Shown: in pieces, positions 26,104-43,401 of the stretch
How positions within the stretch are numbered: position 1 is the stretch's first letter
How the letters are laid out: each line of letters begins with the position of its first letter
Assembly (NCBI RefSeq): GCF_002177135.1
Contig: NZ_MWPH01000005.1
Location: 1 to 64,000, forward strand
Length of the DNA stretch: 64,000 bases
Source of the DNA: Natronolimnobius baerhuensis
GTDB taxonomy: Archaea; Halobacteriota; Halobacteria; Halobacteriales; Natrialbaceae
Direction of reading: 5' to 3'
Position numbers and translations under genes: made by a program
The notes under the pieces: model-generated
Database searches by the model: none
Seen by the model: the letters and a program-made list of their open reading frames with translations, nothing else
What the model was told of the DNA's origin: nothing

Positions 26104-26181
26104 AACCGCATAAAAGGGCTCTCCTGTGTTGAAGACAAGGGTGCAATGAGACTTCCTCACAAACAAGGACCGAGATATGAA

Positions 26182-27120: not shown

Positions 27121-27140
27121 CCCACGACTTCAGTCGTAGG
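27121..27140. repeat. IS200/IS605-like right-end hairpin remnant
   Basis: CCCACGACTTCAGTCGTAGG forms a hairpin and is preceded by an AGGAGGAAG stretch. This resembles the conserved right end of haloarchaeal IS200/IS605-family elements. No TnpA or TnpB frame remains in the 130 bases to the left, so it is a remnant at most. Confidence 0.5.
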
Positions 27141-27148
27141 TTACTGAC

Positions 27149-27352: not shown

Positions 27353-27418
27353 TCGTTGGGTCGTCTTTCCTGCGAAGTACAGCCCTGCACCCCGAAACGC
27401 AGCGATAAAATCTGCAGA

Positions 27419-27685: not shown

Positions 27686-27708
27686 GGAATTCACCTTCTA
27701 CACCATAC

Positions 27709-28098: not shown

Positions 28099-28253
28099 GA
28101 CCGTTCGCGCAGTTCACGGACCTCAGCGACCGAATCGACATCAAGTTCGCTGGCAAGTCCTCGAAGTCGTTCGCCGAGCGGCGGCCGGTCACCTTCCTCG
28201 TCTTCGTTGTCAGTGCGAGCAAATTCGTTTACGTCATCAGCGTAGACTCCCAT
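28095..28253 (-). CDS. vapB: short antitoxin partner of the PIN toxin
   Basis: A 52-residue acidic protein starting MGVYADDVNEFARTDNEDE and ending in the charged helix SVAEVRELRERS. It is followed by an ATGA overlap with the PIN toxin gene. The size, position and toxin overlap support an antitoxin, although it looks like only a toxin-binding region without an obvious DNA-binding domain. It is short enough to be missed by automatic annotation. Confidence 0.65.
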   Translation of the reverse strand: MGVYADDVNEFARTDNEDEEGDRPPLGERLRGLASELDVDSVAEVRELRERS

Positions 28254-28427
28254 ACTCAACTAATTGCTTTCCGTCGGTAAAACAGTTCGGCACAAATGGA
28301 GCCAATACTCATGTTGTCTGCCGGCACTGTGAATCTTTAATTGATTAGTTACGCTTATTACTGAACTCTTCTCTCTTTTGGAAAGATACTGCCCAAGGGC
28401 ACCTCTAGACTAAGTAAATGTGCAAAG

Positions 28428-28979
28428 TTATCTTGAAATCACTTCGTACTCGTACTCAATTTCGTCGAGACCACGAATCGCTGTGAGGTCAAGGTCACTA
28501 TCTCGAACCTCTCGACAACGCCATTCATTGATTGGCCACCCAACATTGGCCAGCCGTTGGTTAGCTCTATCAAAAACCTCGACACCGCTGATTATGATCG
28601 AGCCCTCCTCCGGCTCGAAATCAGGATAATGATCAGTCACACGCACATCAATTGGTAAGGTAAAGTCGATGATTTCTATTGTTCCATCGAGTTCCGAGGG
28701 TTCGTCGTAGTAATCAGCTTCATAGCCTAAATGATGGGTGTGGACAGCAATCGATGCAACTTCGATATCATTTGTATCGATTATTGCTCTTGAACAATCC
28801 CATTGAATGAACTCAATACCGTTATCGATAACTGTTCGAGGTCTATCAAACTCGTCAGGATCTCGTTCTTGTGCTGTTCCCGTTGTAGACACAATTGTAC
28901 TCGATGTTACTGCACTGACAGCGGCTAATACTCTTCGTCGTGATAAGGAATTATCCTCCATCATGTGGGTTGTTCCCAT
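28428..28979 (-). CDS. Tat-exported protein of unknown function
   Basis: The protein of about 183 residues has a twin-arginine signal (LSRRRVLAAVSAVTSSTIVS) without a lipobox Cys, so it is secreted or released. The mature part is beta-rich and acidic (TIEIIDFTLPIDVRVTDHYP). Possible starts are 29006, 28979 and 28964; a TATA-like TTATTTGG lies just upstream of the middle one. It is the last gene before the conjugation-like cluster on the same strand and may be cargo. Confidence 0.6.
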   Translation of the reverse strand: MGTTHMMEDNSLSRRRVLAAVSAVTSSTIVSTTGTAQERDPDEFDRPRTVIDNGIEFIQWDCSRAIIDTNDIEVASIAVHTHHLGYEADYYDEPSELDGTIEIIDFTLPIDVRVTDHYPDFEPEEGSIIISGVEVFDRANQRLANVGWPINEWRCREVRDSDLDLTAIRGLDEIEYEYEVISR

Positions 28980-29034
28980 CTCTCTATCCAAATAACCATA
29001 GTCCACAGGTCATTGCAGGAGAATGTGAACAATC

Positions 29035-30303
29035 TCAGCGAGAAATGGTTTTCTTCATACGCTTCCAAATTGTGTCTCTATCATCAGTAGCTTCTTTGAA
29101 ATTCGAAGACTGATCACAGTCCTCGAATTGTTCTGCACAATTCTCAAGAGACTCTCGAAGTGCTGTGTTCTCGTCTTCGAGTTCCTCGAGACGGGCGTTT
29201 TTCTGCTCGAGCGTCGCCTCGAGAGCAGACACACGCTCGCTCAAGAGTTGATTCTTCTCGGCGAGATAGGCTGCCCGCGCACCGTCAGTGCCGCTCACAG
29301 TCCGCTCAGTCGTCGATGTGGGTCCATCCTGGCTGTTGCCCTGTGCAGCCGTCGTCTGCCCTCCTCCAGTGCTTGTCTCGTTTCCACTCGAGGGATCGTA
29401 GACGTCCTCCGTACTCGCGATTGCTCGCTCGACTGTCTTCTCACCGTACGTTGAACCGTCGCTGTAATGGACCTCGTCCCACTTGTCTCGAAGCAGTCCC
29501 GACTGTCGGAACAGTTGATCGACTCGAGCAGCGTCACCACCCGTCCAGAACGCCAGCAAACAACACAGCGCCATATCGGCTTCCGACTGGCTGTCGTATC
29601 CAGCAGTCGAACCACGCCACAGTCGATCAAACTTCTCACCGTTCGATGCGTACCTCGCTTTCTCGAGGAGTTCCTCGTCCTCGAGTGCCAGTGATTGCTG
29701 ACGGCTCTCAGTGACCGGTGGGTTAGCCTCGACAGTGTCAGCCCCATCACTGACCTCGGACACGATAAACTCCTCGTGAACCGCCTCGAGTGCCTCCTGT
29801 CGCTCGTTGATTGACATCGGCGTTCCTCTGACGTGGTCTGCGGTCACGGTAAAGAAGCGAGCGTGATCATACATCTCGAGCGTCCCATGTCGATTTCGCC
29901 CATCAGGAAGCTCACCCTCGAGGAGTACGTGATACCCCGTTCCCGACGGCGAGACCTCAGTGAACGAATCCAATTGGTCGATGATCGACGGCGCTGGCTC
30001 GAGTGGCTTGCCTGTCTCGGGATCGCGGCAGTCGTCTAGGTCCACACCGACCAACGGATCCGTCGCGGTGAAGACGAAGCCGATGCCATCAGCACCAGTC
30101 ACCACGTACTCGAGTGCCTGCTCCAGCGTCGTCCACGTTCGGTCGTCGGTCGTCGACGCAAAGCTTCCAGTTGTTGGATCCACTGGCACCTTCGTTGTCT
30201 TTCCATCCCTGTCTTCTGCCCGCCAACAGATCCACTGTGGGCGTTCGGCTAGTTCGTCTGGGATCGCTTCGATGTCGAATTTATCTTCATTCTGATTATT
30301 CAT
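29035..30303 (-). CDS. PrimPol-like replication primase of plasmid/phage type
   Basis: The 422-residue protein starts with the pattern of self-synthesising or plasmid primases (RPQWICWRAEDRDGKTTKVP, VDPTTG). It carries a PrimPol-like metal motif in VGVDLDDCRD and the SPSGTGYHVLL strand, then a helical segment with LCCLLAFWTGGDAARVDQLF near residues 240-270. The C-terminus is a coiled coil (about 340-395). Such proteins prime plasmid, viral or conjugative-element replication. It lies downstream of the giant ATPase, separated by 276 bases that contain palindromic repeats. Confidence 0.7.
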   Translation of the reverse strand: MNNQNEDKFDIEAIPDELAERPQWICWRAEDRDGKTTKVPVDPTTGSFASTTDDRTWTTLEQALEYVVTGADGIGFVFTATDPLVGVDLDDCRDPETGKPLEPAPSIIDQLDSFTEVSPSGTGYHVLLEGELPDGRNRHGTLEMYDHARFFTVTADHVRGTPMSINERQEALEAVHEEFIVSEVSDGADTVEANPPVTESRQQSLALEDEELLEKARYASNGEKFDRLWRGSTAGYDSQSEADMALCCLLAFWTGGDAARVDQLFRQSGLLRDKWDEVHYSDGSTYGEKTVERAIASTEDVYDPSSGNETSTGGGQTTAAQGNSQDGPTSTTERTVSGTDGARAAYLAEKNQLLSERVSALEATLEQKNARLEELEDENTALRESLENCAEQFEDCDQSSNFKEATDDRDTIWKRMKKTISR

Positions 30304-30444
30304 ATTTAGTCACCATCTGCATTGACTCTCCGGCTTTGACGGAGTCGAGAAAACCCTCGAGGCACCGAACTTTCTTACGTGATTTCGACTGCCCTGACCG
30401 ACGGGGAAACCCCCTTCTATACTAGTCGGTTTTGTCCACGAATT

Positions 30445-30528
30445 TGCCTGGACATTCGACGCAGTCTTGCGGTTTTTCCCTGGACATCCCTGTCCAGGCA
30501 TTTCCCCGGCCCCCAGAATGCCTGGACG
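30445..30528. repeat. CCTGGACA palindromic repeat cluster, candidate origin or operator
   Basis: Four copies of CCTGGAC lie in 84 bases: TGCCTGGACA at 30445, CCCTGGACA at 30478, inverted TGTCCAGGCA at 30491 and TGCCTGGACG at 30519. The middle two form a perfect palindrome with eight-base arms and a four-base loop (CCTGGACA-TCCC-TGTCCAGG, 30479-30498). The cluster occupies the only long gap (30304-30579) between genes of the conjugation-like module, just before the primase start. It could be a replication origin, transfer origin, or primase operator. Confidence 0.55.
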
Positions 30529-30579
30529 GCACTGATTGTGGATGGAGAGTTCCCTATCTCTGGTAGGTACTATCATGGG

Positions 30580-33500
30580 TCAGTCGAGGAAGTCTCGCCC
30601 ATAGGATGAGAGCATAATACCAGTATAGTGACGTACGCGCTCACCGTCCCGTGTCGGACGATATTCGTCATACGAAACATGCTCGCTCAGCTTCCGGCCA
30701 AACCAGGACTTCGCATACGTTTCATGGTCGTGCGTGCCTGCCCACGCTTCGTAGGCGGTGTAGAGATCATCCTTTGCAATTTCGGCACCTTCCTGTTGAA
30801 GAAGGCAGTCCTCGACGAAGGTCCCGAAATCGACATCTTGTGAGCCATCTAATGGACTCTGTTCGGGTTGCTCCGTCGAAGAAGCAGCAGTGGATTGCTC
30901 CCGGTCACTTTCTGAAAGAACAGGCAGGACAGATGTCTCAGACTGGTTTACTTCAGCAGGGCCGGGACAAGACTCAGCGGGTTGCGAGTTCATCACATCG
31001 ACGAGAGAATCGAGAGGACGTCGCTGCCCATCACGGTAGATCTGCATGGAGTTACTGTCCCTCTCGAGGACGGCAATTACAGACGATTCGAGAGGCGCAT
31101 CCGTTGTCGATGTGACTGTCTCAGGAACGAACGGCTCTCGGATCGACACCCACTCTTGTTCGAACGCAGATTTGCTGTCGTAGCGGTGGCGTTTGCTCGG
31201 TTCGTAGACAACGTACTCATCGGTGGCTCGATCATAGCTATACACGGCAGGCACATCGCTTCGTGAAAGCGACTCGAGTGACGAGACGGTCACAAATTCA
31301 GTACCTAGTCCATCGCTCAAACGATACTCACCCCTGTCCTGAGTCCACACAGAACGTCTCGAGTCACCAGTCGCCGGTCGAACTGCGGTCACACCATCTC
31401 GAACGTTTGCACCACCATCGAACGTGATGTGCGAATCAGTCGTGTATAACCGTACTTCCCCGGATTCGAGTTCGTTGACTGGCGATGTGAGGATATCCTC
31501 GAGACGGGCTGCAGTTTGCAGTTCATCGTCACCGCCCTCAGTAGTGGTAACGACGAACAATGGAACGTGATCAGCCTCTCGAGCCCGTTGGAAGTTTCGA
31601 AGGACTTTCACCGGTTTATCGACTGTCGTTGACTCAACCTCGATATCGAAGATCTGCTCACAGTCGGGATGAACCGCCCGGCCATCGGGTTTCTCGCTTC
31701 CATCCTGCGTGAATATCGTGACATCGAAATCCACCTGTGAGAGTTCTCGCTTGGTAGCGAACAACAACTCATCGTGCAGATCGCTTCCCGAGGACCGCAC
31801 ATCACCCGTATCCGGCTCAGTTACCGCTTCACCGTCGTCGGTCAATCGGACGACGATCTCCCCATCATCCTGATCAAGCGTGACCTCGAGCAATCGGGAT
31901 CGGTCTCGGATTGCTCCAAGCTCTTCGATTGATGGTGGTGATGCATCGGCAGCCTCGTATCGTGTTCGAAGCGTCTGATCCACCGACTGCACAGGAACCC
32001 ATCCGTTCGCCTCGCGAACGCCCTGTTGGTGTTGAATCGTTCGGACAGCGTTTGCGAGCGCAACGTCGAGATCGTCGGATCCTAACTCAAACGTTTCACG
32101 AACAGTAGACGGTGTTTGACTGGTTGGCGGTGAATCCGTCACCACACCGTACTCTGAATCTGCTCGCTCGTGAATTCGCTCGAGTGCGTTCTGAAACGCC
32201 TGCTCTTCAGCAGCGGTCAGCGGGGTATCGCTCTCGGGGTGGCCAAACGGAATCGGGAGTGGTGCCAGACTGAACGGCTCTGGACCAGTCTCGCCGAACG
32301 TTGGACTCGGTAGTCGAACAATCCATTCGCCACGTGGCAGTGACCGAATTCGATTGGCGAACTCGACGGGATCCATATCCTCATGGGCCATCACCTTCGC
32401 GATCTCGTTGTCGACGGCGATCTTGCCGATGATCGGACTGCCGACGTCGTTGAGAACATTTAGATAGACTTCGCGACCGCCCTTGACGTCGAGTTGCTCA
32501 GGGAACTGCAGTGAGAGGCCAACAGAGAGCCGGAAACTTCGTCCCTTCTCCAACAGCGTGTTCATTACGTCAGAGACAGCCAGACTCGAGGCCTCGTCGA
32601 TGATCAGGTTGACCACGTAGTCGTCCGGCTTCTGTTGGATATCGTCACTACGCTCTCGCAGCGCGTTGTATAGCTCCGTCAGTATGACGCCGGTCATCGC
32701 CTTTGCAGATTCATCTCGAAGCCCGCCGAGGTCGAACAGGATCACGTTGCGATCATCGAGAACATCGCGGAAGTCGAACTGCGACTCGGTGTTGTTGAAG
32801 ACTCGTCTCAGATGCTCGTCCTGTGAGATATAGTCGAGACGATTACTGACACCCCCCATTACAGTCGCGAACGTGTTTGGGTCGAGCTGTAGTTGGCGGT
32901 CGAGCCGTCGCTGGACCTGTGCATTGCTCGAGCGTGGTGCTGCATCATCCACGGGGTTCGGCGGGCCAGCATGCCAGAGTTGGTCGACAACGTACTCGAG
33001 TTGATCGTGAGCGAAGTAATCGACACTCTCGCGATAGCGGCCGTTCTCGCGGCCATACTCGTCGTCGTAGAGTGTCTTGATGAGGTATTTGATGAGCGTT
33101 GGCGCGACAACCGCTCGCTCGTAGCGCTCTTCACCCATCACCATCTTCAGAATCTCCTCGTAGTGATCCGCCTTGTTCTGGACTGCATCGACACGCCGAA
33201 CCCCGTTCTCGAGTTGGCGCCCGATATTGAAGAACGCAAACCCGGGAAGGACCTCCGGAATCGGAAAGTGTAGGACGTTTTCGTCGAGATCGTCAACGCC
33301 GAATCGGTGGGCGTGGGCTCGCATGTAGTCCTCACAGAGTCCGTCGCCTTTCGCATCAATCAGAATAATCGGGCCGTCAGCCTGGTCGTAGAGTGAGAGC
33401 TTGTCGTTGGTCAGTGACTTCGATTTACCACCACCTGTCGTAGCCGCTCGAACGTAGTGCGTTGGAAGCAACGATGGGGGAATCCGAACCGGCTGTCTTT

Positions 33501-34887
33501 CCGGTTCACCATTCTCATCAATGGCATAGCCGATTGCCATACCCTCCCGGAACTCGTCCATGAGGTCCGGGTGCGGCCGTGGCAATGGATTCCGGGAGCG
33601 TTGCTCGGAGCGTGTCCCACGGCTCCCTTCGACAGTGAGGTCCTGTGAAGAGGGGACGACAGTAAGATTCGCGAGTTCATCGGCGTTCAATACGAGATCG
33701 GGACGGTGTTTCCCCCGTCCAGTTGAGAGTTCCGAATGAAGTACCTTGTTGAGAACTGCTCGAGCGCGTTTTCGTTTCGTTCTGGTCAGCATCCCCTTCG
33801 AGCGAATCCGCTGTCCCTCGAGTTCGTAGAACGGGCCATCTAAGGCGTTCAGTGATTGTGCGAGTTGGTCGAGTTGAGTCTCGATCTGCTTATCTAAATC
33901 TCCATCAGCAGTGGGCGGAATTGCAACTGCTCGAGCGTTCACGGAAAAGGTTCGTTTTGGATGCTTGGCCTCGATTCGGTTGATTCGATTTTGGGCTTCA
34001 GTTCCAAGGGTCGGCTCACGTTCGTCTGCATCGAGATCACCCGTCTCGAACAGGGGACCGATATAGCGCTGGCCGAACGTATCTCGTCCATCTCGAAGAT
34101 CCTCAACGCGTAACTCTGCATCAGCTGTCCACTCGTCTTTGCGCTGCCAGACCACCTGGAACGCAACCGGGTACTCGAGTTCGGTGAGGTGATCAATCAG
34201 CGTCGCGAGTGGCGGTTGATCAGTATCGTACTCGGTTGGATCTGGATCTCGACCAGCAAATGATTTGATCGTCGTCATCCAGTCGCGCTTGCGCTGCGCC
34301 CGTCCGTGCCACTGAACGCCAATCGGCTCGACGTCCTCGAGTGGTGGCCGAGCGGAAACCGTCGCTGAGTCTGAAGACGACGCTTCTACCTCAAGAGACG
34401 AATCGGTGGTGACCGCGGAGTCATCGACTACGTCCTCGAGGATCGAACGACCACCGTCAGTTTGCTCATTCTCTCTATACTCATCTCGTTCATCAGCCAG
34501 TGGCGGATCCAGCAGTCTCCCGTCCTCGAGGCGTTCGTGATACTCGTCTTGTGTGTAGTCGACTGGCTGGACGAGCTTCTGCTCGAGACGTAACTCACTC
34601 CGTGTGATGTCGAATGTCTTCGGATAAATCGTTCTGAGTTGCTTCTCAAGTGTCTCGAGGTGTGCCGAGTGATCAATGCCGTAGTAGAACTCAACTGGGT
34701 CGTCTTCGCCTTCGCTGATGGCAAGAAATTCGAACGTCGGCGGGGCTGTATCAGTAAATGGATTGAGACGGTCAGACACGTTTCGAGCAGCAGGATTCGT
34801 GAGTTTATGCAAACTCTCGAGTGCGGCAGGAACCTCAGCAGTCCGCAGTTCCTCGGAGGTTGGCGTCACTCGGATGTACTCACTCAT
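30580..34887 (-). CDS. giant HerA/VirD4-like ATPase of the conjugation-like module
   Basis: A 1435-residue protein. After about 480 residues of N-terminal domain comes a P-loop ATPase with Walker A TTGGGKS (about residues 484-490 from this start), ILIDAKGDGL and the Walker B region VNLIIDEASS, with a GLSLQFPEQL segment typical of DUF87/HerA and TraG-like pumps. A long C-terminal half (about 900-1435) is unlike known coupling proteins. It may include a nuclease-like region around VDFDVTIFTQDGS and IFDIEVESTTVDKPVK, and it ends in a helical domain. A ribosome binding site GGAGGTGA eight bases upstream fixes the start at 34887, overlapping the preceding gene by eight bases. Confidence 0.75.
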   Translation of the reverse strand: MSEYIRVTPTSEELRTAEVPAALESLHKLTNPAARNVSDRLNPFTDTAPPTFEFLAISEGEDDPVEFYYGIDHSAHLETLEKQLRTIYPKTFDITRSELRLEQKLVQPVDYTQDEYHERLEDGRLLDPPLADERDEYRENEQTDGGRSILEDVVDDSAVTTDSSLEVEASSSDSATVSARPPLEDVEPIGVQWHGRAQRKRDWMTTIKSFAGRDPDPTEYDTDQPPLATLIDHLTELEYPVAFQVVWQRKDEWTADAELRVEDLRDGRDTFGQRYIGPLFETGDLDADEREPTLGTEAQNRINRIEAKHPKRTFSVNARAVAIPPTADGDLDKQIETQLDQLAQSLNALDGPFYELEGQRIRSKGMLTRTKRKRARAVLNKVLHSELSTGRGKHRPDLVLNADELANLTVVPSSQDLTVEGSRGTRSEQRSRNPLPRPHPDLMDEFREGMAIGYAIDENGEPERQPVRIPPSLLPTHYVRAATTGGGKSKSLTNDKLSLYDQADGPIILIDAKGDGLCEDYMRAHAHRFGVDDLDENVLHFPIPEVLPGFAFFNIGRQLENGVRRVDAVQNKADHYEEILKMVMGEERYERAVVAPTLIKYLIKTLYDDEYGRENGRYRESVDYFAHDQLEYVVDQLWHAGPPNPVDDAAPRSSNAQVQRRLDRQLQLDPNTFATVMGGVSNRLDYISQDEHLRRVFNNTESQFDFRDVLDDRNVILFDLGGLRDESAKAMTGVILTELYNALRERSDDIQQKPDDYVVNLIIDEASSLAVSDVMNTLLEKGRSFRLSVGLSLQFPEQLDVKGGREVYLNVLNDVGSPIIGKIAVDNEIAKVMAHEDMDPVEFANRIRSLPRGEWIVRLPSPTFGETGPEPFSLAPLPIPFGHPESDTPLTAAEEQAFQNALERIHERADSEYGVVTDSPPTSQTPSTVRETFELGSDDLDVALANAVRTIQHQQGVREANGWVPVQSVDQTLRTRYEAADASPPSIEELGAIRDRSRLLEVTLDQDDGEIVVRLTDDGEAVTEPDTGDVRSSGSDLHDELLFATKRELSQVDFDVTIFTQDGSEKPDGRAVHPDCEQIFDIEVESTTVDKPVKVLRNFQRAREADHVPLFVVTTTEGGDDELQTAARLEDILTSPVNELESGEVRLYTTDSHITFDGGANVRDGVTAVRPATGDSRRSVWTQDRGEYRLSDGLGTEFVTVSSLESLSRSDVPAVYSYDRATDEYVVYEPSKRHRYDSKSAFEQEWVSIREPFVPETVTSTTDAPLESSVIAVLERDSNSMQIYRDGQRRPLDSLVDVMNSQPAESCPGPAEVNQSETSVLPVLSESDREQSTAASSTEQPEQSPLDGSQDVDFGTFVEDCLLQQEGAEIAKDDLYTAYEAWAGTHDHETYAKSWFGRKLSEHVSYDEYRPTRDGERVRHYTGIMLSSYGRDFLD

Positions 34888-37051
34888 CCGTGTGGTCACC
34901 TCCGTCAATCCACGTTAGCACCTCATGATCCTCCACTTGTGCTTCTTTAGAATCGGTTTCCTCGTCTCGAGAGTCGTCTACAGAGCGTGTATCACTTCGA
35001 TCAGGAACGCCGGGAAGATCGCCTCGAGACTGTTCTTTGGCGTCGAAATCGATCACAGCCTTCTCTTTCTCGAGTGCATGAACCTCGATCCCGCGCCAGT
35101 CGCCGTCAACGCCGACAAGGGCTTCCGAGTATCCGATGTCCTCACTCCCTGGAACGGCGTCTTGGACAAACCGCATTTGCGCCGAGTTCAAGCCGAATTC
35201 GTTCGCCCAGTGCTGGTCCATCCCATCGAGGTGGTGGAACTGCTTGATCGCACATTGATCTAAGATGGCCTCCGACTCGGCATGCTGGAAGAACTCGTCG
35301 ACAGTCTGAGTGATCATCCGGATCGAAAGATCATGGTGGCGGTGGTGACGGAACACGATCTCGAGATACTCGAGACTGGCTGCATCCTGCATCAGATAGC
35401 GAGCCTCGTCAATGACGAACACGACCTCTTTGTCCGTCTCCTTTGCTCGCTCGTAGACTAACGTGATCAACAACTGCATGATGAGACTCGTGCTTCCACC
35501 GAGGCTGCCTTCCTGCTGAGCCAAATCCAGGTAAAAGACCTTCTCGTCGCGAAGATCGAACTCGGTCGGTCGCCCGAGGTTTTCGTAGCGACCATCCGCT
35601 GCAAAGGATCGCAACTGGTCAATCAGCCACGTCGCATCCGACTCGATCTTCTGTGTCTCCTCGTCAGTTCGGACGACGAAACCGTCCGGCTTGTCGACCA
35701 TGTCCTCGAGGATATCGAGGACATCCTGCATTGTCGGACTCTCGTTTTCGTGGGTCGCAATATCGTCCGTAATACCCTTCGTAGCATATGCCTCTTCGAT
35801 GGCCGTCTCGAGCGTTGTGCGTTTGTCGCCGAGTTGGATGCCACGAAGGGCAAAGTAGTTCGAGAGGAAGCTCATCACGCTGTCGAGCTTTTCGCGATAC
35901 GGACTCGCGTCTTCGCCCATTGCTCGCTGGATACGTTCGGGCGTTGGCTTGATCTCGAGCGGGTTCAATCCCATATCACCGCCGACCGTAATTCGTGTGC
36001 CACCGAGTGCTTCGGCGACGCCGGCCCAGTTATTCAACGGCTCGAGGATGATCCCGATTCGGTCCTCACTTTGCTCAATCGACCGGATGAAATTCTGTTT
36101 TGCACCGAACGATTTTCCGGATCCAGGATCCCCAATCGTGAACATCGCATAGCCATTTTCTCGAGCAAATGGATCGATCACGACGGGGCTCTCGTTTTTC
36201 CAGTGAGTCCCAAACTCGACGCCGTCATCCTCGAGAATCGTCGCGTTGTGTGGCGAAGCAAGGAGTGCACCGACAGCCCCTCCGAGCGAGATTGCTTCGC
36301 GACCGAACGGGTTCGAACCGATTGGTGCAGCAGCCTGAAGGGCAAGATCCTGTGTACAGATCGCTGTTTTCGGTGAGAGGCCAGCAGGCTGTTCGCGAAG
36401 CCGACTCCGAATCGTCCGGACTGCCTCCCGAAGTTCGTCTTTTCGCTCTGCACGGACAGTGATGAACATTCCCTGATCGAACACACGGCTGCCGTTCTCG
36501 ACCGCCTTGTACGTCGACACTGCCTCGTTCGCTCGCTCCTGGAGGTAGGCCCCACGAACGCTTTGCTCGAGATCAGCGTCGACCTGCAGGTCGTCAGCGA
36601 CTCGCTGGAGTTCGTCTCGAGCTTTCTGCTGATTCTTCGGCGTAATGTGGACGGTTAGATCGAACTCGATATCGGTCAGTTCGAACAGTTCGTTCAGATA
36701 GCCGTCCTTCGGGTAGTCCGGATAATCCGCAATGTAGAGCGTCGACGTCCACTGCTCGCCGACCTGTGCAGCGCGTGTTTCCCACGTGATTGCCGACGGT
36801 GCAACGGCGCTTTTGTGACGTTCCGGAATCTCCTCGAGGATCGTCTCTTCGACAGCGCCCTCCTCGAGCGTGTCTTCGTCGAGGAACTCCGAAAGGTCCA
36901 CTTCCGTTTCCTCGTGTGTCCGAGCCTGGTAGATCTTCACGCCAACACCGAGAAGGACAGCAAATACGACAACGCCGGCAACGATGTGCGGCGTCTCGAG
37001 TCCAGCCAGATACTGCTCGAGAGCGGAGACAGCAAAGATAGTGCTACTCAT
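34880..37051 (-). CDS. virB4: VirB4/TraC-like conjugation ATPase
   Basis: The 723-residue protein has one N-terminal membrane segment (VAGVVVFAVLLGVGVKIY), then a VirB4-type middle domain and ATPase. Walker A is TIGDPGSGKSFGAKQN and Walker B is VVFVIDEARYLMQDA, followed by the FRHHRHHDLSIRMITQTVDEF segment typical of VirB4 and TraC. Such ATPases energise assembly of type IV secretion or pilus machinery. The start at 37051 has a GGAGG site upstream and overlaps the preceding stop by eight bases (ATGAGTAG), so the genes are coupled. Confidence 0.8.
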   Translation of the reverse strand: MSSTIFAVSALEQYLAGLETPHIVAGVVVFAVLLGVGVKIYQARTHEETEVDLSEFLDEDTLEEGAVEETILEEIPERHKSAVAPSAITWETRAAQVGEQWTSTLYIADYPDYPKDGYLNELFELTDIEFDLTVHITPKNQQKARDELQRVADDLQVDADLEQSVRGAYLQERANEAVSTYKAVENGSRVFDQGMFITVRAERKDELREAVRTIRSRLREQPAGLSPKTAICTQDLALQAAAPIGSNPFGREAISLGGAVGALLASPHNATILEDDGVEFGTHWKNESPVVIDPFARENGYAMFTIGDPGSGKSFGAKQNFIRSIEQSEDRIGIILEPLNNWAGVAEALGGTRITVGGDMGLNPLEIKPTPERIQRAMGEDASPYREKLDSVMSFLSNYFALRGIQLGDKRTTLETAIEEAYATKGITDDIATHENESPTMQDVLDILEDMVDKPDGFVVRTDEETQKIESDATWLIDQLRSFAADGRYENLGRPTEFDLRDEKVFYLDLAQQEGSLGGSTSLIMQLLITLVYERAKETDKEVVFVIDEARYLMQDAASLEYLEIVFRHHRHHDLSIRMITQTVDEFFQHAESEAILDQCAIKQFHHLDGMDQHWANEFGLNSAQMRFVQDAVPGSEDIGYSEALVGVDGDWRGIEVHALEKEKAVIDFDAKEQSRGDLPGVPDRSDTRSVDDSRDEETDSKEAQVEDHEVLTWIDGGDHTDE

Positions 37052-38159
37052 CGCTTTCCCTCCGCTGGCGGCCAACGGCTGACTGTTCGCGAACCGCGTC
37101 AGCAGCGTCGTCGTAGGTGTGCTCTTCGCCGTTCCAGAAGTCCATCGCGAGCACGAACAACTCGACTGTACTCAATCGACGAGCTGACCATCCCGGCGCT
37201 TTTTGGACTAATTCCGTCTGAACGGCTCGACAGCGTCGATCAAGCTTATCGAACATCCGTGATCGGACTTCGATGTCCGCTAAGTCCTCACGGCGGGTGA
37301 CGAATGGGTTGAACAGAAAGCCGATCACCGGCAGCGACGTGAGTTTCTCAGCAGGCGATTGTTCGTCACGGTAGCGACTGTAGACCTCGAGCGGGTTGAC
37401 CTGGACGCCAATATAGTAGCGAATCTGTTGGGCCTCGTCGAGGTCTCGAGGGCGCTGTTCACGATACTCCGCGAGTAGCTCCTCGAACACCGGGTTATCA
37501 GAAACGTCGTCGTCCTCGAGTCGCTCGTCGATCTGTGTGATGAGTTCCTCTACTGGAAAGGTTCGAGTCGTCGTGTAAAACTTCAGGTTGTAATCGAGTT
37601 CCTTGTTCGCAAACTCGCTGGCGACGTCTTGGACGTGAGCCCAGTCACCGCTCATTGCGAAATCCATGTTCCCCGGATCGACCTGGAGAAACGCTTCCAT
37701 CGTGCCATCCGTTCGCTGGACGGTTCTAGCACCTGGCCACGCTCGCTCGATATTAGTCAGATCTTGCGTTCGCTCATCCGGTGCAAATGGCGTGTAGTTG
37801 ATCAACCCGCCTTCGTTCCGGGCGGTATTCGAGTGGGTGTGAGCATGTTCGTCTTTCGCTGAAACGCTGTAGGTCACTCGAGGGCGTTTGCAATAGTGAC
37901 GATAGACATCGGTGAGCCACGTTGCAGCGGACAGGTGTGACGGACTTGCATAGACGGCTGCAACGCCGAGCGCAAGGCCAACAAGAACCAGCGGAAAGAC
38001 AAGCGCATCCACACCGCTGAAGCCACCGATAAGTAAGCCGCCGATCGGGAACCCAAGGAGTACGTAAACGTCTCCCTCGTCAACGTTGACGATTGGGACA
38101 CGGTTCTCTTCGCCCAGTTCATCCATAATTCGTCGGGAAGCAGCGTCTTGATCAGCCAT
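37044..38159 (-). CDS. two-TM conjugation-module membrane protein (VirB3/PrgI-like plus cytosolic domain)
   Basis: A 371-residue protein with two adjacent membrane segments near the N-terminus (VYVLLGFPIGGLLIGGF, LVFPLVLVGLALGVAAVY), then a cytosolic domain of about 270 residues that resembles the N-terminal region of VirB4-type proteins (RTVQRTDGTMEAFLQVDPGN, LNPLEVYSRYRD-like). It precedes and overlaps the VirB4 gene, as VirB3/PrgI-like genes do in secretion clusters. The role as the VirB4 membrane partner is inferred from layout. Confidence 0.6.
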   Translation of the reverse strand: MADQDAASRRIMDELGEENRVPIVNVDEGDVYVLLGFPIGGLLIGGFSGVDALVFPLVLVGLALGVAAVYASPSHLSAATWLTDVYRHYCKRPRVTYSVSAKDEHAHTHSNTARNEGGLINYTPFAPDERTQDLTNIERAWPGARTVQRTDGTMEAFLQVDPGNMDFAMSGDWAHVQDVASEFANKELDYNLKFYTTTRTFPVEELITQIDERLEDDDVSDNPVFEELLAEYREQRPRDLDEAQQIRYYIGVQVNPLEVYSRYRDEQSPAEKLTSLPVIGFLFNPFVTRREDLADIEVRSRMFDKLDRRCRAVQTELVQKAPGWSARRLSTVELFVLAMDFWNGEEHTYDDAADAVREQSAVGRQRRESDE

Positions 38160-38161
38160 GG

Positions 38162-39313
38162 TCAGTAGTATCCTGGATCGTTTTCGGTGCGTCGGTACTG
38201 TGGAACCCCTCGTTGCCCGTGGGCGTCAGCGACGACGTTGTCGTGCGTTGTGCCACCAGCTGCAGCATTCGATGGAGCACCGCTCGAGTTGGCGCTAGAG
38301 CCCCGATGGCGGCCACTAATCTGCTGACCGGCGACTTGCCATGCCGCAGCTTTCGGCCCCCACCGAGCAGCCGTTGTGGCAGCGAGTGGGCCAGCGACTT
38401 TCGCAGCCCCGAGTGTTGCCCCAACTGTGACCGCTCCTTTCGTTGCACCACCGATGGCTTTCGCCGTCAACGGACTCGCATACGCGAAGAGCTTCCAGAT
38501 GAGAACGAGCGCGAAGATCGGGAGCGATGCACCAATAATATAGCTTAGAAACGCGCTCTCCGGGGCAATGGCAGAGTTTGTTCCTGTCCCGAAAAGAAGA
38601 TCATAGCCACGGAAGAGGATTGCAACCGGTAACGGCATAATCGCTAACGGAACGAACTTGATCGCGATTTGCTTCGCAATTCGAGAAACAACGGGGAGAT
38701 ACCCATACGCGACTGCAATCGCAATCGGTGTCGCGTACAAGTAGATGTACAAGAGAATCTCGCGAATGAAAAACAGCGCCTGTAAGATCCACATCGCAAT
38801 CCCACCGATACCAGCCATCAACAGTGCCAGCGCTGGGTTCGTTATTGAGACCTCGAGGAAGTCTAAAACGCCATCGATGAGAGCATCAATACCAGGGACA
38901 AGGGCAATTGTGAAACCGTTCACCAGGTAGAGGGCAAGGACTGCAACCCAGTACCATGTCACGATCAAAACAGCACCAGTCCAGGCAGATCGTCTGGCTT
39001 TTCGGGCCTGATAAACACTCCCAAAGTCGAAGATACGAATGGTGTGATGTCCCTGAACGAATATCACGAGCAACAATAGCGATAAGAGCATGATTTCGCC
39101 GGTGACGAGTGCATCATGCAGCCCTATCCACGGTTCATTTGTTGGCTGGCCGAAGACGAAGTTCCCGTCCGTTTCAGGAACTGGTGTTCCAAACAGCTCC
39201 TCTGAGAGGTAGTCGTATCCGTCGATGAGTCCGTCCTGAAACCACTCGATGATCGTCTCAACGATGTCTTCGAACCATCGGCGACCAAACTCAGTGAGCG
39301 ACATCGGATACAT
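38162..39313 (-). CDS. polytopic TrbL/VirB6-like membrane protein
   Basis: The 383-residue protein has an acidic N-terminus, then about six membrane segments between residues 70 and 290, and a soluble Ala/Gly-rich tail (TKGAVTVGATLGAAKVAGPL) ending in a charged disordered region. This is the layout of TrbL/VirB6 channel proteins. The gene ends two bases before the next ORF begins. Start options are 39313 and 39304. Confidence 0.65.
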   Translation of the reverse strand: MYPMSLTEFGRRWFEDIVETIIEWFQDGLIDGYDYLSEELFGTPVPETDGNFVFGQPTNEPWIGLHDALVTGEIMLLSLLLLVIFVQGHHTIRIFDFGSVYQARKARRSAWTGAVLIVTWYWVAVLALYLVNGFTIALVPGIDALIDGVLDFLEVSITNPALALLMAGIGGIAMWILQALFFIREILLYIYLYATPIAIAVAYGYLPVVSRIAKQIAIKFVPLAIMPLPVAILFRGYDLLFGTGTNSAIAPESAFLSYIIGASLPIFALVLIWKLFAYASPLTAKAIGGATKGAVTVGATLGAAKVAGPLAATTAARWGPKAAAWQVAGQQISGRHRGSSANSSGAPSNAAAGGTTHDNVVADAHGQRGVPQYRRTENDPGYY

Positions 39314-39316
39314 ACC

Positions 39317-40153
39317 CTACTCCACCTCAATTTCGATATCGCACTCAACAAGATCCTCTCCGGTATACGTGACCTCATAGTCTTCAGAGACTGCATCGTC
39401 CAACATAGCAGTCTCAACAGCGACTTCAAAGACTCCATGCTCAGTTTCCGGAGTACACGAAACACGCTCTGATGCCGCTGAAAACGGCCGCCGCTGACTG
39501 TAGATCGTGACTCGTTCACCGGGGGGAAGGTCAATCGTATCTGCATAGCTACCCAGATCGCTTTCCTCGTCATAGATACCACTCTCGTCATACTCATCTC
39601 TACTCGGCGTTTGGCGTGGAACGTCACCAGAAAAGGCGAGATGAGTTGCAGCATCAGGACCACTTCCTTGATTCTTGAGTGTGATGATAGTCTCTGTCCG
39701 GACCTCACGGTCACTCGCCCCCTCAAACATCTCATCCGGATGATTCCGACCGAGTCGCAGGTCGGTAATACGGATATCGGACTCAATCGTCACTGACTGC
39801 GTGGACTGTTCATCGCCGTCCTCGAGCGCAATAATCTCGTACACACCGGGATCGTAGTCAGTCCCAATCGCAATCGAATCACGACTAACACCGGATACAA
39901 TCGACAGTTCGTCGAACAACTCACCATTGGGGTCGATGACGTTTATCTGGTCAATCGACGACTCATTAGTGAACTCGAGGACGAGGTCCGTGTCCTCGAG
40001 AAAGATGTCCGTGAAGACATCGTCACCGTCGAAGTCATTCTCCCCGTTTTCGGAGCCACTATCGGAACTACTGAAGCAACCACTCACGGCGACAGCAGCG
40101 CCGGCTACGATTCCACTGAGGACGGTTCGTCGGGGTATTGGATTCTGTGTCAT
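39317..40153 (-). CDS. Tat-exported lipoprotein in the conjugation module
   Basis: A 278-residue protein with a twin-arginine signal (PRRTVLSGIVAGAAVAVSGC) and lipobox Cys29, then a very acidic linker and a beta-rich mature domain. It overlaps the upstream gene by four bases (ATGA) and lies three bases before the TrbL-like gene. It is probably a surface component of the machine. The family is not recognised. Confidence 0.65.
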   Translation of the reverse strand: MTQNPIPRRTVLSGIVAGAAVAVSGCFSSSDSGSENGENDFDGDDVFTDIFLEDTDLVLEFTNESSIDQINVIDPNGELFDELSIVSGVSRDSIAIGTDYDPGVYEIIALEDGDEQSTQSVTIESDIRITDLRLGRNHPDEMFEGASDREVRTETIITLKNQGSGPDAATHLAFSGDVPRQTPSRDEYDESGIYDEESDLGSYADTIDLPPGERVTIYSQRRPFSAASERVSCTPETEHGVFEVAVETAMLDDAVSEDYEVTYTGEDLVECDIEIEVE

Positions 40154-41889
40154 GGGTTGTGTTCGTCAGGGATTCGAAGAAACGAGCCGAGTTTCAGACC
40201 CGCATACAGAGCCACGAGAAACGGAATCGAGAGCCAGACAATATCGACAAACAGTGTAAACCAGCCACTAGCGGTCGTCAGCGGATGCCAAGACACACTC
40301 GCTGTATCTCCAACGTACGCAGGGTTGTTCATCCGCCACGAATCAGGATGGTACTCTGCAGTGTGAATACCGGGCTGTGTGAGTGTGACCGTCGCTTGAC
40401 CCGTTGCGTTTGTCTCGACACGCTCACCGGCAATCGAGATGTAGCCATCACGCGTCGAAGCGCCGATTGGCCTAAATCGAGGATCGTTCTCGAACGGGTC
40501 CTCGAGCATGATCGGGTTCCCAGTCTCGACGTCGTGAAGCGACACCTCGAGCGTCATCGTTGACTCATCCTGCTCGAGGATTTCGACAGATAACTCACTC
40601 TCACGGATTTCGCGTTCTGCGCCACCTTCTGGCTCGACTAACTCAGCAGTCGTCCCACGGACGATACCCTGTACCTCGAGGTGATCACGGTCGAACTCAT
40701 CGTACCGTACGGCAAGCCCATACGAGCGCGTATAGGGTTCCTCGAGAACGTCGATATCGACGTGTTCGTGGATCGTCTCATTCGGGGACGGACGGTCACT
40801 ACCCCACACTTCGACGATGTCTGGTCCGTCATAGATGGGATCTGCACGAGGACCAGCCTCGGATGGATACGCCCTCACAAACACTGGCAGCGCATCCGAG
40901 TGACGCTCAACACTATCTGTTGCTGAAGACTCTACGAGGTGATCCCAGTCCGTGTCTCGAGCAGTGTAATAGCGCCAGTTACCACGAACGGCAGCGTCCC
41001 CATCTTCTGAAAGGATGTATCCATGCCACGGCTGTGCCTGGTAGATCGCAACGCCTGTGTCTCCATCTGGGTACTCAGCGTAGTAGATCGATGCCGACAG
41101 ATCGTAGACTTCGACCTCGAGGTCACTCGAGACCGTGAGATTATCGACCTCCGTTTCAGTCTGGTTACCGCCTGGTAGCTCTCGTTCGTGCCAGACCTCG
41201 ATATCTGCTTCAAACGTCAGCGTTGATGGCCCGCTCCCATCGAGAGCATACTCGAGTACTGGGGTATGCGTTCCATCCTGCGTTGAAATCGTCTCTTCAT
41301 CCTGTTTCAGCCGAACCTCGTCAACGCCGTGCTCGAGCACAGACCAGTCGCTGGAGAACGTGCTATTGTTGCTGCCGGGAGTGCGGACACGATAATCTAC
41401 AAATCCACGAAAATCACCGTCAGGTGCGACATACTGCGGTGTCTCCGTCTCATCTTGATGGACGATCGTCGATGGTTGAAGCGCAAATGATGTTGCATGA
41501 GCCTCTGCTATCACACTCGAGTTCTGCGTCTCAGCACTCGCCGGGTACACCGATGTGTTTCGATCACCGGCCTCGAGTGTATCAAAGTCTGCTGCAGTCC
41601 AGGTTGCCGCTGTATCTGGAGGTTCAGCAAACGAGATGTCAGTGCACTCTCCAAGTTCTTGCATGTCGGTTCGGTTCTCGCCATGTTGCTCATAGTACTC
41701 CTCGTCGCTGCGACACTCGTTTGGCAACTTCGACCACAGCGTTGCTGTCTCGTTTTCGTCGAGCCCACTCCCTCCGGGGTCGGGTCGTGGCGGATGGTCA
41801 GTACTTGCGGTGCTGGGGACCGTAATAAGACTCCCAGCGAGGAGGACGATCCCGATGGAGAGTGCCAACTGACGTATTTGGAGAGCCAT
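40150..41889 (-). CDS. large exported, membrane-anchored surface protein
   Basis: A 579-residue protein with an N-terminal signal (LALSIGIVLLAGSLITVPSTAST), a large acidic beta-rich exterior with many Asn-x-Ser/Thr sites suited to N-glycosylation, and one C-terminal membrane segment (FTLFVDIVWLSIPFLVALYAG) with a short basic tail. It is a plausible pilus or contact protein of the conjugation machine. No enzymatic motif was recognised. Confidence 0.65.
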   Translation of the reverse strand: MALQIRQLALSIGIVLLAGSLITVPSTASTDHPPRPDPGGSGLDENETATLWSKLPNECRSDEEYYEQHGENRTDMQELGECTDISFAEPPDTAATWTAADFDTLEAGDRNTSVYPASAETQNSSVIAEAHATSFALQPSTIVHQDETETPQYVAPDGDFRGFVDYRVRTPGSNNSTFSSDWSVLEHGVDEVRLKQDEETISTQDGTHTPVLEYALDGSGPSTLTFEADIEVWHERELPGGNQTETEVDNLTVSSDLEVEVYDLSASIYYAEYPDGDTGVAIYQAQPWHGYILSEDGDAAVRGNWRYYTARDTDWDHLVESSATDSVERHSDALPVFVRAYPSEAGPRADPIYDGPDIVEVWGSDRPSPNETIHEHVDIDVLEEPYTRSYGLAVRYDEFDRDHLEVQGIVRGTTAELVEPEGGAEREIRESELSVEILEQDESTMTLEVSLHDVETGNPIMLEDPFENDPRFRPIGASTRDGYISIAGERVETNATGQATVTLTQPGIHTAEYHPDSWRMNNPAYVGDTASVSWHPLTTASGWFTLFVDIVWLSIPFLVALYAGLKLGSFLRIPDEHNP

Positions 41890-41918
41890 GGACTTGCGTA
41901 TTCAGTTGGGTGTCTGGA

Positions 41919-42341
41919 TCACCACGGCACCAAGTCAACACATTCGGCGAGCGGAAGCCCCATCGTCGATCCGGCCACAGTATACAGCGGCCCGAGGACG
42001 AGCAGGATGATCGCAGATTTGAGAGCAGTTCTCTTGTGTTGTTTCAGCCCCTTTTTCTGCTCAGGATTCACGGTGAACATCTCAGCGAGTGAATCCGCTT
42101 GCCAGACAACAACCAGACCGATGATACCGAGTGCTGTCGTGATCTGGAAGAAGCCCGAAATCATGTCCGGAAGTTGCTCTGCTTCGCAGACTACGCCGTC
42201 CTGCGCGACGACCGGTTTGATCAGAACGAGGCTGAACAGAACTATCGAGAGGGATAGCTGCCGAACAAGCCGCCACGGCACGCGCCCAGAGTTCGTCCGC
42301 GATTCTATCGACTCCGTATTTTCATCGAAAGGTGTCGTCAT
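41919..42341 (-). CDS. small two- or three-TM protein, VirB2/TrbC pilin-like candidate
   Basis: A 140-residue protein with a first hydrophobic segment ending in VVAQDG (LVRQLSLSIVLFSLVLIKP), a second (ISGFFQITTALGIIGLVVVW) and a third (SAIILLVLGPLYTVAGS). A signal-like first segment plus two further helices and small size resemble VirB2/TrbC pilins. It is the second gene of the cluster. Pilin identity is inferred. Confidence 0.55.
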   Translation of the reverse strand: MTTPFDENTESIESRTNSGRVPWRLVRQLSLSIVLFSLVLIKPVVAQDGVVCEAEQLPDMISGFFQITTALGIIGLVVVWQADSLAEMFTVNPEQKKGLKQHKRTALKSAIILLVLGPLYTVAGSTMGLPLAECVDLVPW

Positions 42342-42371
42342 CTTTGGTCACGTTGGGGAAAGTTGTCTGCG

Positions 42372-42692
42372 TCACTCTGTTGTGGACTGCTGCATTGACT
42401 CCGCCTGCTCTGCAACTAAGTGCTCTAAATCATCGATTCGGCTTGTCTGCTCGAGGATTTCATCAAATTCATAGCCCTGTTCAACTGCCTGTTCAAACAG
42501 GGTGCGAAATTCGTGTGGGTTGATGTCACGAATTTGCATTTCGTCTTTGAGCGCTCGGCGAAAGAGCGCAGACGCATTGATGTGGCCGTTCCACTGGAGG
42601 AACAGTTCATCTATCTCCTCGAGGGTTACTGATCGTGACTGCATAGAGTTTCTGGAGGGGATAATGGTGAGTGAATCACGCTGCCTCACCAT
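42372..42692 (-). CDS. small cytosolic protein, first gene of the conjugation-like operon
   Basis: A 106-residue acidic protein with helices around VTLEEIDELFLQWNG, INASALFRRALKDE and a C-terminal coiled coil (EILEQTSRIDDLEHLVAEQAES). It is preceded by a TATA box (TTTATATA at 42710-42717 on this strand), whose spacing suggests a leaderless message starting at ATG 42692; 42644 is the alternative. It could regulate the cluster. Confidence 0.6.
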   Translation of the reverse strand: MVRQRDSLTIIPSRNSMQSRSVTLEEIDELFLQWNGHINASALFRRALKDEMQIRDINPHEFRTLFEQAVEQGYEFDEILEQTSRIDDLEHLVAEQAESMQQSTTE

Positions 42693-42709
42693 TTAGTGGT
42701 GGTCTCCAG

Positions 42710-42717
42710 TATATAAA
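42710..42717 (-). promoter_or_regulatory. TATA box of the conjugation-like operon
   Basis: TTTATATA on the minus strand sits about 20 bases ahead of ATG 42692. It is the only strong promoter seen before the nine-gene run. The rest of 42693-43023 is AT-rich and shows no gene. Confidence 0.5.
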
Positions 42718-43023
42718 TTCTTCTAATGTAATTACTAAATTATTAGTCCTCTGGTGTGGATTTTGGTTGAATAGGATTCCACTGCAGCTCAAGAGAAAAG
42801 GGTAACTGGACATGGTCGAAACCGAGGTAAGCACCTTCAAACAACAGTGTTCTAATCGATAGATCAAGCTACACCAGTGTTACCTCATTGAAGGTGGGAA
42901 GTATCTACATTTTCAGAGTTGAAGCGACACGCAGTGGCCACTTGAGAGGATATGACTTGAGGACTGACGCTACTGAGTAAAGTGGGAGTATTATTTCAAG
43001 AGCCTCTGAGCACCTTTTGGCTA

Positions 43024-43401
43024 TTACACCGGCAAAGTCAGACAGTACGCCTCAATATTTGGGGCAAGTGAAATGACCTGCTCGCGTTTTCTCAGGTTTG
43101 CTTTCCGGGAGTGGATACGAGTCTCCAGTTGTCCAAGACGTTGTTTCTGGTTCCGAATTGCGATGCGCATATCCGATCCCGTTGTCGCTTTTTGTTCGTA
43201 CGAATCGATGAACGACTGGATCCGATCTCGTTCTGCTTGCTCATAGGCTTCCAAGTCAGAGAGTTCTTTCTGAACGTCCTGCTGACGGTTTTCGAGGAGA
43301 TCTTCGCGGATGTCGGCGACCATACTACTGATGTACCTCTCAGCGGCGTCCTCGAGGTCACCTCGTTGTTGGACCGTGATGGGGTCTGGCCCGAATTCTT
43401 T
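43024..43401 (-). pseudogene. C-terminal remnant of a larger protein, possibly a helicase
   Basis: The frame is open from 43401 without a start codon until ATG 43323, and the sequence before that ATG is already protein-like (DPITVQQRGDLEDAAERYISS). It continues as a long coiled coil (DIREDLLENRQQDVQKELSD) to a hydrophobic end (AYCLTLPV). Such tails occur in large helicase-type defence or plasmid proteins. The missing 5' part suggests truncation at the edge of the module. Confidence 0.45.

Follow-up and report, generated by a model that had tools for sequence, protein, structure and literature searches.

The conjugative elements of archaea that most closely resemble the locus considered here, pNOB8, pT33-3 and the thaumarchaeal ICEs, encode, according to the portions of the reports available to us, VirB4 along with a second FtsK-HerA ATPase and membrane channel proteins and no recognisable relaxase (PMC12857230, PMC6563490); these portions do not describe an origin-like site adjacent to the second ATPase. 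In Streptomyces, plasmid DNA is moved in double-stranded form by the FtsK-like protein TraB, which recognises TRS repeats of 8 bp at clt (PMC4170104). We have analysed 64,000 nucleotides from the haloarchaeon Natronolimnobius baerhuensis (the window), in which a secretion-type gene module surrounds a conserved non-coding gap (Table 1). Most of the mechanistic information resides in the cis-acting region and in the DNA-recognition domains, both of which a first-pass annotation of this DNA had overlooked.

Gene content and replicon context

The first-pass annotation had described nine minus-strand genes as one compact run, with TrbL, VirB4, a Tat lipoprotein and a 1435-residue ATPase among the products. 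All four proteins are present (PF19590, NCBIfam, Pfam, sequence), and the coordinates, the uninterrupted reading frames and the overlaps of 4, 8 and 8 nt stand; the run is, however, broken by 276 nt between the giant ATPase and PrimPol. A simple scan places a TATA-like box, TTTATATA, ∼25 nt 5' of the ATG of the small cytosolic protein, and an Rfam search of the operon for known RNA elements gave no match. The gene at 28428-29006 and the ORF at 43024-43323 lie outside the module and have no relatives in the compared loci.

Table 1. Coordinates of the module in the window; residues of the giant ATPase are numbered from the TTG at 34908 (1442 aa).
Feature	Position	Strand	Basis
Small cytosolic protein, 106 aa, first gene of operon	42372..42692	-	ORF; relative at equivalent place in 31/74 loci
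Pilin-like small two-TM protein, 140 aa	41919..42341	-	ORF; kept in 46/74 loci
Surface protein, 579 aa, signal peptide and C-terminal TM, beta-sandwich-rich	40150..41889	-	Kept in 59/74 loci
Tat lipoprotein, 278 aa	39317..40153	-	RRTVLSGIVAGAAVAVSGC signal and lipobox in sequence; 56/74 loci
TrbL/VirB6-like polytopic membrane protein (TrbL_3)	38162..39313	-	PF19590 E 4.5e-238; 63/74 loci
Two-TM protein with soluble C-terminal domain	37044..38159	-	ORF; 64/74 loci
VirB4-like ATPase, from ATG (TTG start, 37075)	34880..37051	-	NCBIfam CD1110 VirB4, PF03135, PDB 4ag5
Giant coupling-type ATPase, 1435 aa from ATG, 1442 aa from TTG	30580..34887	-	Weak TraD/CD1115/CedB/TraG-D_C matches
HerA/VirD4-type ATPase domain, residues 480-890	32239..33471	-	Walker A GGGK495S, Walker B D771E772
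First winged helix, residues 933-1035	31804..32112	-	AlphaFold model; Orc1/Cdc6-WH and MarR-like, Z about 8-9
PD-(D/E)xK-like nuclease domain, residues 1041-1160	31429..31788	-	D1075, E1090-x-E1092; model fold
RFX-type winged helix, residues 1357-1442, proposed repeat reader	30583..30840	-	1dp7; Pox_D5/RFX_DNA_binding; follows repeat class
Candidate cis-acting transfer site (oriT/clt-like), repeats and core	30304..30579	-	Non-coding gap kept in 51 loci
Family-specific repeats CCTGGACA/TGTCCAGG	30440..30530	-	Exact at 30447-30454, 30479-30486, 30491-30498; CCTGGAC at 30521
Core AAAACCGACTAGTATAGAAGGGGGTTTCCCCGTCGG with inverted repeat CCGAC/GTCGG	30398..30433	-	Conserved across gap sequences
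PrimPol, NrS-1 type, 422 aa, C-terminal coiled coil	29035..30303	-	PDB 7rr3/6k9a; PF22763

The VirB4-like ATPase matches the CD1110-type VirB4 of NCBIfam (2.2e-42) and the VirB4 structure 4ag5 (9.8e-9), with PF03135 (CagE_TrbE_VirB) and PF19044 both exceeding their cut-offs. Matches of the giant ATPase to TraD, CD1115, CedB and TraG-D_C are weak (for TraD, CD1115 and TraG-D_C below the curated cut-offs), and its FtsK-HerA motifs are invariant, with K495, D771 and E772 unchanged in 60 homologues. The earlier call of a PrimPol primase is borne out by the NrS-1 phage primase/polymerase (7rr3, E 3e-42; 6k9a, E 1e-41), to which residues 17-310 align over the AEP and helix-bundle domains, and by PF22763 (2.1e-31). 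The pilin-like protein is without a match in the family profile search and may be considered VirB2-like by position only; the second two-TM protein is likewise assigned by its position as the partner of VirB4.

Gene order from the pilin-like protein through surface protein, lipoprotein, TrbL_3, two-TM protein, VirB4 and giant ATPase to PrimPol recurs in dozens of haloarchaeal plasmids and genomes, and the counterparts in other haloarchaea are annotated in part as conjugal transfer genes. Synteny across haloarchaeal plasmids, which had been named as a check on the earlier reading, is indeed conserved: among 74 loci, counting the excerpt from the window itself, the giant ATPase is linked with VirB4 in 69, with TrbL in 63, with the surface protein in 59 and with PrimPol in 55. 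Such conservation of order far exceeds chance. The view that this is a conjugation-like secretion module thus gains from TrbL_3, VirB4, the weak coupling-protein matches and conserved linkage on plasmids. The module is not rare, having close relatives on many haloarchaeal plasmids; for its cis site, a conserved launch-point-like DNA site beside a transfer ATPase gene, no archaeal description was found in the accessible portions of the literature.

Two Orc1/Cdc6 genes on the 151-kb contig make a plasmid-like replicon the probable location of the module, and chromosomal integration, considered on account of housekeeping-type neighbours, was dropped. A viral origin was likewise rejected: the giant ATPase has no match among 50,697 phage records, and viral contigs contain no core site. 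Comparison of flanks within the genus (one other genome) yielded nothing useful. On some plasmids, ExoVII- and ArdC-like genes neighbour the module.

Searches for the relaxase families PF03432, PF08751 and PF02486, with positive controls, returned none in the organism's own genome or in seven complete plasmids, so that the earlier statement that no relaxase is recognisable holds for these three families; PF01076 stands outside this negative, its controls having given no match. For one whole plasmid, 47 less-characterised proteins were compared with Pfam and NCBIfam, and the 25 families listed include no relaxase. The surface protein, modelled at low confidence (pLDDT 57), has Ig/FnIII-like matches only, and no fusexin appeared in PDB sequence searches or among the structural matches listed for this low-confidence model; a PF10699 search gave 3 sub-threshold matches in 391 genomes. 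In these searches and this low-confidence model, the idea that it might be the fusexin Fsx1, with a class II fusogen fold, finds no support. The gene set of the module resembles that of fsx1-bearing elements.

The intergenic gap and the C-terminal half of the giant ATPase

The 276 nt between the stop codon of the giant ATPase and PrimPol contain no credible gene, an 88-aa ORF (30310-30576) having been rejected as not of the acidic haloarchaeal type. Instead, the gaps of 51 loci hold short, plasmid-specific repeats of ∼8 bp. They also share a near-invariant core, AAAACC[A/G]ACTAGTATAGA..., and with it an inverted repeat that covaries; this cis region was found in every one of the 51 gap sequences examined. 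The repeats are 270-1770-fold denser inside the gap than in its surroundings; the class D word, for example, occurs at 8.8 per kb in gaps versus 0.012 per kb in the remainder of those loci. A search of 391 genomes for the exact core pattern gave 37 occurrences, in 33 genomes, against none for the reversed pattern used as control; the 30 core sites that were fetched all adjoin a giant-type ATPase gene, and at 29 of them PrimPol lies within the 3-kb stretch. This layout of repeats, inverted repeat and conserved core suggests that the gap may be an origin of transfer.

Three domains are predicted for the C-terminal half of the giant ATPase: a winged helix, a PD-(D/E)xK-like nuclease domain and an RFX-type winged helix. 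In the AlphaFold model the nuclease-like domain has an alpha-beta-beta-beta-alpha-beta-alpha core resembling Hjc, Can2 and PaqCI at modest Z-scores of 8.0-9.6. The motif PD1075 and E1090-x-E1092 is kept (D1075 and E1090 in 59/60 homologues, E1092 in 60/60), with E1092 occupying the position of the classical lysine; K1101 (55/60) is possibly that lysine, migrated. The predicted fold and the conserved D, E and E lend weight to the earlier surmise of a nuclease-like C-terminal half. The RFX-type domain superimposes on the RFX DNA-binding domain 1dp7 with Z 12.0 and r.m.s.d. 1.6 over 75 of 76 residues; PF03288 (Pox_D5) is matched by 24/24 members and PF02257 (RFX_DNA_binding), weakly, by 7/24.

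The class of the repeats co-varies with this domain. Nearest-neighbour assignment of repeat class from the RFX domain reaches an accuracy of 0.97 (silhouette 0.55), versus 0.35-0.65 (silhouette about 0) from VirB4, TrbL, the ATPase and nuclease domains or PrimPol. In 138 pairs of loci with closely related backbones (ATPases at least 94% alike), RFX identity is 0.95 within a repeat class (minimum 0.80) and 0.34 between classes (maximum 0.41), whereas the other proteins, including PrimPol, VirB4 and the nuclease, are about equally identical in both kinds of pair. RFX identity and repeat class are correlated with a partial r of 0.80 (p 0.0005), swaps of repeats and RFX domain are observed in four backbone clusters, and repeat class was predicted correctly for 9/9 new non-duplicate loci. 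PrimPol, on the other side of the gap, does not follow repeat class. Because the RFX domain tracks the repeats, and PrimPol, VirB4 and the nuclease differ little between repeat classes, the coupling ATPase very probably reads the site of its own plasmid, and binding of these repeats by the RFX-type domain is strongly indicated by the co-variation. As domain and repeats are adjacent, a recombination block could also carry both without binding, although PrimPol, on the opposite flank, does not move with them.

Among ten divergent type IV secretion systems, the ATPase half is 24-30% alike in nine, and all ten retain the winged helix-nuclease portion and the core site; five have lost the right arm of the inverted repeat. 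PrimPol lies downstream in both divergent loci that were read further. Type ii systems combine a related backbone with a different C-terminal half, apparently without a gap-type cis site. By eye, a D...GExE...K pattern is discernible in that half, and kinship with the nuclease-like domain was considered and rejected; since profile comparison gives no link between the two, we make no claim on this pattern.

Proposed mechanism and its alternatives

We give a slightly better than even chance to the proposal that the module mediates plasmid-borne, conjugation-like DNA export, with the giant ATPase as a coupling protein doing the work of a relaxosome at the adjacent site. VirB4, TrbL, the two-TM protein, the pilin-like protein, the surface protein and the lipoprotein would form the envelope channel. 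The RFX-type winged helix would bind the repeats of its own plasmid and thereby load the motor at the adjacent core, where the fused PD-(D/E)xK-like domain may cut or nick, perhaps strand-specifically near ACTAGTATAG; PrimPol would prime synthesis of the complementary strand once a single strand had been transferred. We infer, then, that the system transfers DNA, that this DNA would exit as a single strand and that the nuclease-like domain may be active and nick at the core. Against a nuclease role speak E1092 at the lysine position and the modest Z-scores of the model. The proposal as a whole has against it the lost right arm in five of the ten divergent loci, and the type ii systems, whose related backbone works with another C-terminal half.

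The core could instead be a promoter or a replication site. It appears rather unlikely to us that the cis region is an operator/promoter at which the RFX domain controls transcription of PrimPol, perhaps of the operon, with no part in processing DNA for transfer. The region does lie directly 5' of PrimPol, the core holds TAGTATAG, which is loosely TATA-like, and the repeats often abut it; yet the scan that detects the box before the first gene finds no TATA-like match in the gap, the core is ∼110 nt from the PrimPol start, the covarying inverted repeat exceeds what an archaeal promoter needs, and a motor ATPase with a fused nuclease-like domain would make an unlikely repressor. Iteron-like repeats and a hairpin beside a primase-polymerase gene are, on the other hand, a common layout of replication origins, and Pox_D5-type winged helices are found in primase-helicases too. 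We nevertheless think it improbable that PrimPol serves such an origin with the RFX domain as initiator: plasmids with the module, and the contig analysed here, have separate Orc1/Cdc6 genes, the repeats follow the RFX domain of the coupling ATPase and not PrimPol, and the site is tied to a transfer-type ATPase gene.

Transfer of double-stranded DNA, with the RFX domain loading the motor at the repeats, the duplex being pumped and the nuclease-like domain inactive or otherwise used, would have a precedent in TraB, whose TRS repeats at clt are of about the length of those in the gap (PMC4170104); for archaea, such transfer has been proposed (PMC6563490). We consider it quite unlikely all the same, since the nuclease motif is kept in 59-60 of 60 homologues, and the VirB4/TrbL channel, the PrimPol of the operon and the ExoVII-/ArdC-like neighbours on some plasmids suit single-strand transfer better.

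It is tempting to take the favoured reading further, albeit at somewhat less than an even chance, and to propose that haloarchaeal conjugation without a classical relaxase employs one protein as coupling motor, origin reader and nickase, and that plasmids exchange the adjacent oriT's repeats together with the reader domain as a specificity cassette. If so, the transfer specificity of haloarchaeal plasmids could be typed from sequence alone. The locus offers a candidate enzyme domain, a 276-bp candidate origin and natural domain swaps that predict the repeat read by each protein, all of them amenable to testing in genetically tractable haloarchaea.

Comparison with known systems

With pNOB8, pT33-3 and the thaumarchaeal ICEs, as far as the accessible portions of their descriptions extend, the module shares VirB4, a second ATPase, channel proteins and the lack of a recognisable relaxase; it differs in the domains fused to the second ATPase, namely a winged helix, a nuclease-like domain and an RFX winged helix, and in the origin-like site adjoining it. 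The Ced/Ted DNA-import systems have VirB4-, VirB6- and VirB2-like parts in common with it (PMC9905601), and the giant ATPase weakly matches CedB, but these are domesticated importers, whereas the module is plasmid-borne and comes with DNA-recognition domains and a cis site of its own. The fsx1-bearing integrated elements of haloarchaea share VirB4 and TraG/VirD4-type genes (PMC9259645), while the surface protein here, judged from a low-confidence model, is without a fusexin match. Streptomyces TraB with clt/TRS is, as proposed here, an FtsK-type transfer motor that reads short plasmid repeats (PMC4170104). Unlike the module, however, TraB needs no type IV secretion channel, being sufficient as a single plasmid protein, and it transfers double-stranded DNA. 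We know of no nuclease fused to TraB. Finally, the bacterial relaxosome with oriT and VirD4 has its parallel in the repeats, the inverted repeat by a conserved core, the coupling ATPase and the operon-encoded primase; here, with no relaxase of the tested families, it is the coupling ATPase that carries the recognition domains and, in place of a tyrosine relaxase, a PD-(D/E)xK-like domain.

The operon and its putative coupling-type ATPase

The nine minus-strand genes proposed in the first-pass annotation are all present between positions 29035 and 42692, with every frame open. The compact run ascribed to them holds in its overlaps, which, with starts at conserved ATGs, amount to 4 nt between the surface protein and lipoprotein genes and to 8 nt at both the 2-TM protein/VirB4 and the VirB4/giant ATPase junctions, but a gap of 276 nt splits the giant ATPase gene from that of PrimPol. 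Family searches return TrbL_3, VirB4 and an NrS-1-type PrimPol, in agreement with the proposed identities; coupling-protein matches of the giant ATPase are weak. By tblastn against plasmids, 352 records, some of them bacterial, match VirB4 and 172 match the giant ATPase; 133 of 194 haloarchaeal genomes hold some match to this ATPase, modular variants counted in. A single scan of genome contigs yielded 65 loci; in most of these and of others that were fetched, a conserved, conjugation-like operon runs surface protein, lipoprotein, TrbL, 2-TM protein, VirB4, ATPase, PrimPol. The module's existence is not new: for many relatives, existing annotation reads VirB4, conjugal transfer protein or conjugative DNA transfer family protein.

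The Walker residues of the giant ATPase (1442 residues, counted from the TTG at 34908) are invariant in 60 homologues. A structure model of residues 930-1442 of this putative coupling-type ATPase (mean pLDDT 73, domain cores higher) shows three predicted DNA-related domains, that is, a winged helix, a PD-(D/E)xK-like domain and an RFX-type winged helix (residues 1357-1442) which fits X-box-bound RFX with an rmsd of 1.6 over 75 residues. The nuclease-like C-terminal half suspected earlier finds its counterpart in the second of these, predicted to resemble Hjc, Can2 and PaqCI, and conservation among the 60 homologues is high at D1075 (59/60), E1090 (59/60), E1092 (60/60) and K1101 (55/60). With this domain alone as query, the matches listed included haloarchaeal plasmid proteins, and annotations among them were of conjugal-transfer type, ATP-binding, primase-like DNA-binding and hypothetical.

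A conserved cis region beside the ATPase gene

Across 51 loci, the gap following the ATPase gene measures 241-742 nt and contains 8-bp repeats which differ by plasmid group (TTCCACCC, TTACGGCA, GGTCAGGG, CCTGGACA, GTCTAGGG, TTACGACA). There are usually three to five per gap, whereas shuffled sequence gives no more than two or three, and their density is 270-1770 times that of the surrounding DNA. Frequently abutted by these repeats, a core is found in 51/51 gaps, a few variant forms included. The five pairs of its inverted repeat are 98% paired, compensatory changes occur (A-T/G-C in ten distinct sequences, C-G/A-T in one), and sliding the partner arm destroys the pairing. A 23-nt core pattern occurs 37 times in 391 genomes, the reversed control pattern 0 times, and all 30 fetched sites adjoin this ATPase gene. 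These comparisons establish a conserved, putatively cis-acting region adjacent to the ATPase gene; no description of the site was found in open-licence literature, which does not prove absence.

The absence of a recognised relaxase, asserted earlier, is upheld for PF03432, PF08751 and PF02486 by searches, with working controls, of the organism's genome and of seven complete plasmids that bear the module. Three papers describe recognisable relaxases as wanting in archaeal conjugative plasmids (PMC12857230, PMC9905601, PMC6563490). The cis region is plausibly an oriT, at which the predicted nuclease domain may nick.

A further recurrent motif, AA(C/T)CGC(A/C)(A/C)GACnGCG (e.g. AAAACCGCAAGACTGCG, minus strand), is seen in the window's gap (30304-30579) and in the same gap of many loci, sometimes repeated (loci L004, L007, L008).

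Joint exchange of repeats and RFX domain

Repeat class was set from DNA alone and then compared with each protein domain, the repeat words having been picked by inspecting gaps, class sizes being uneven and permutation made without a tree model. No domain follows the class except the RFX domain and, less clearly, the segment immediately preceding it. For 138 pairs whose ATPase domains are 94% or more identical, RFX identity is 0.80 or higher between loci with matching repeats and no higher than 0.41 between loci with differing ones; mean likeness of PrimPol, VirB4, TrbL and nuclease is about equal in both sets. Loci L016 and L020, for example, share 99% in ATPase and nuclease and 93% in PrimPol, but 35% in the RFX domain, and their repeats differ. 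In different-class pairs, likeness of the repeat part is 0.50, no higher than for shuffled DNA, as against 0.93 for the core and 0.83 for the gap beyond it; the exchanged block therefore comprises linker, RFX domain and repeats, ending at the core. Mixed classes are present in four backbone groups. Class was predicted correctly for 9/9 new non-duplicate loci, and wrongly for one further locus with a disturbed ATPase frame.

Repeats and RFX domain have, by these comparisons, been exchanged together. They could travel together by physical linkage, yet PrimPol, on the other side, shows no class effect, which argues against plain hitchhiking. That the RFX domain reads the repeats is strongly suggested.

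Neighbourhood and modularity

Features of the module's surroundings and of type ii loci (L numbers, compared haloarchaeal loci)
Feature	Position	Remark
Whole contig (C5)	151,266 bp	carries module; Orc1/Cdc6 genes at 78.1 and 90.2 kb
Deoxyhypusine synthase gene	window 53030-54109	same contig as module
GmrSD-type restriction endonuclease gene	within window 20657-25050	near module
Metallo-beta-lactamase-fold gene	window 23401-25050	after GmrSD-type gene
Several small genes, some toxin-antitoxin-like	window 25000-28300	
Exodeoxyribonuclease VII two-gene set xseA/xseB	L004 4855-6092; L006 5956-7194	upstream of module
Type ii coupling ATPases	L116 7083-11800; L121-L128	same T4SS backbone, other C-terminal half

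Deoxyhypusine synthase genes are usually chromosomal and single-copy, and the contig may be a chromid or cointegrate. In L002 and L036, too, the metallo-beta-lactamase-fold gene is found downstream of the module, as are relatives of the small genes on many plasmids, one of them in 23 compared loci. The xseA/xseB set is found on some plasmids, and NZ_AP017571.1 encodes an ArdC-like ssDNA-binding protein; both are possible helpers in single-strand handling.

Ten more distant loci, in which the ATPase half (and VirB4 where read) is strongly different, retain both the winged helix-nuclease half and the core ACCAACTAGTATA; 5/10 lack the right arm of the inverted repeat. Type ii systems keep T4SS and ATPase with a different C-terminal half, possibly a second nuclease fusion, and the one locus read has no such cis region. 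That half ends in a conserved KTPHK..DVAG..GE(A/V)E..SNN..DYxK segment; directly downstream, and overlapping the ATPase gene, is a gene which by eye reads like a PriS-type primase. This modularity would resemble the split between mating-pair and DNA-processing modules in bacteria.
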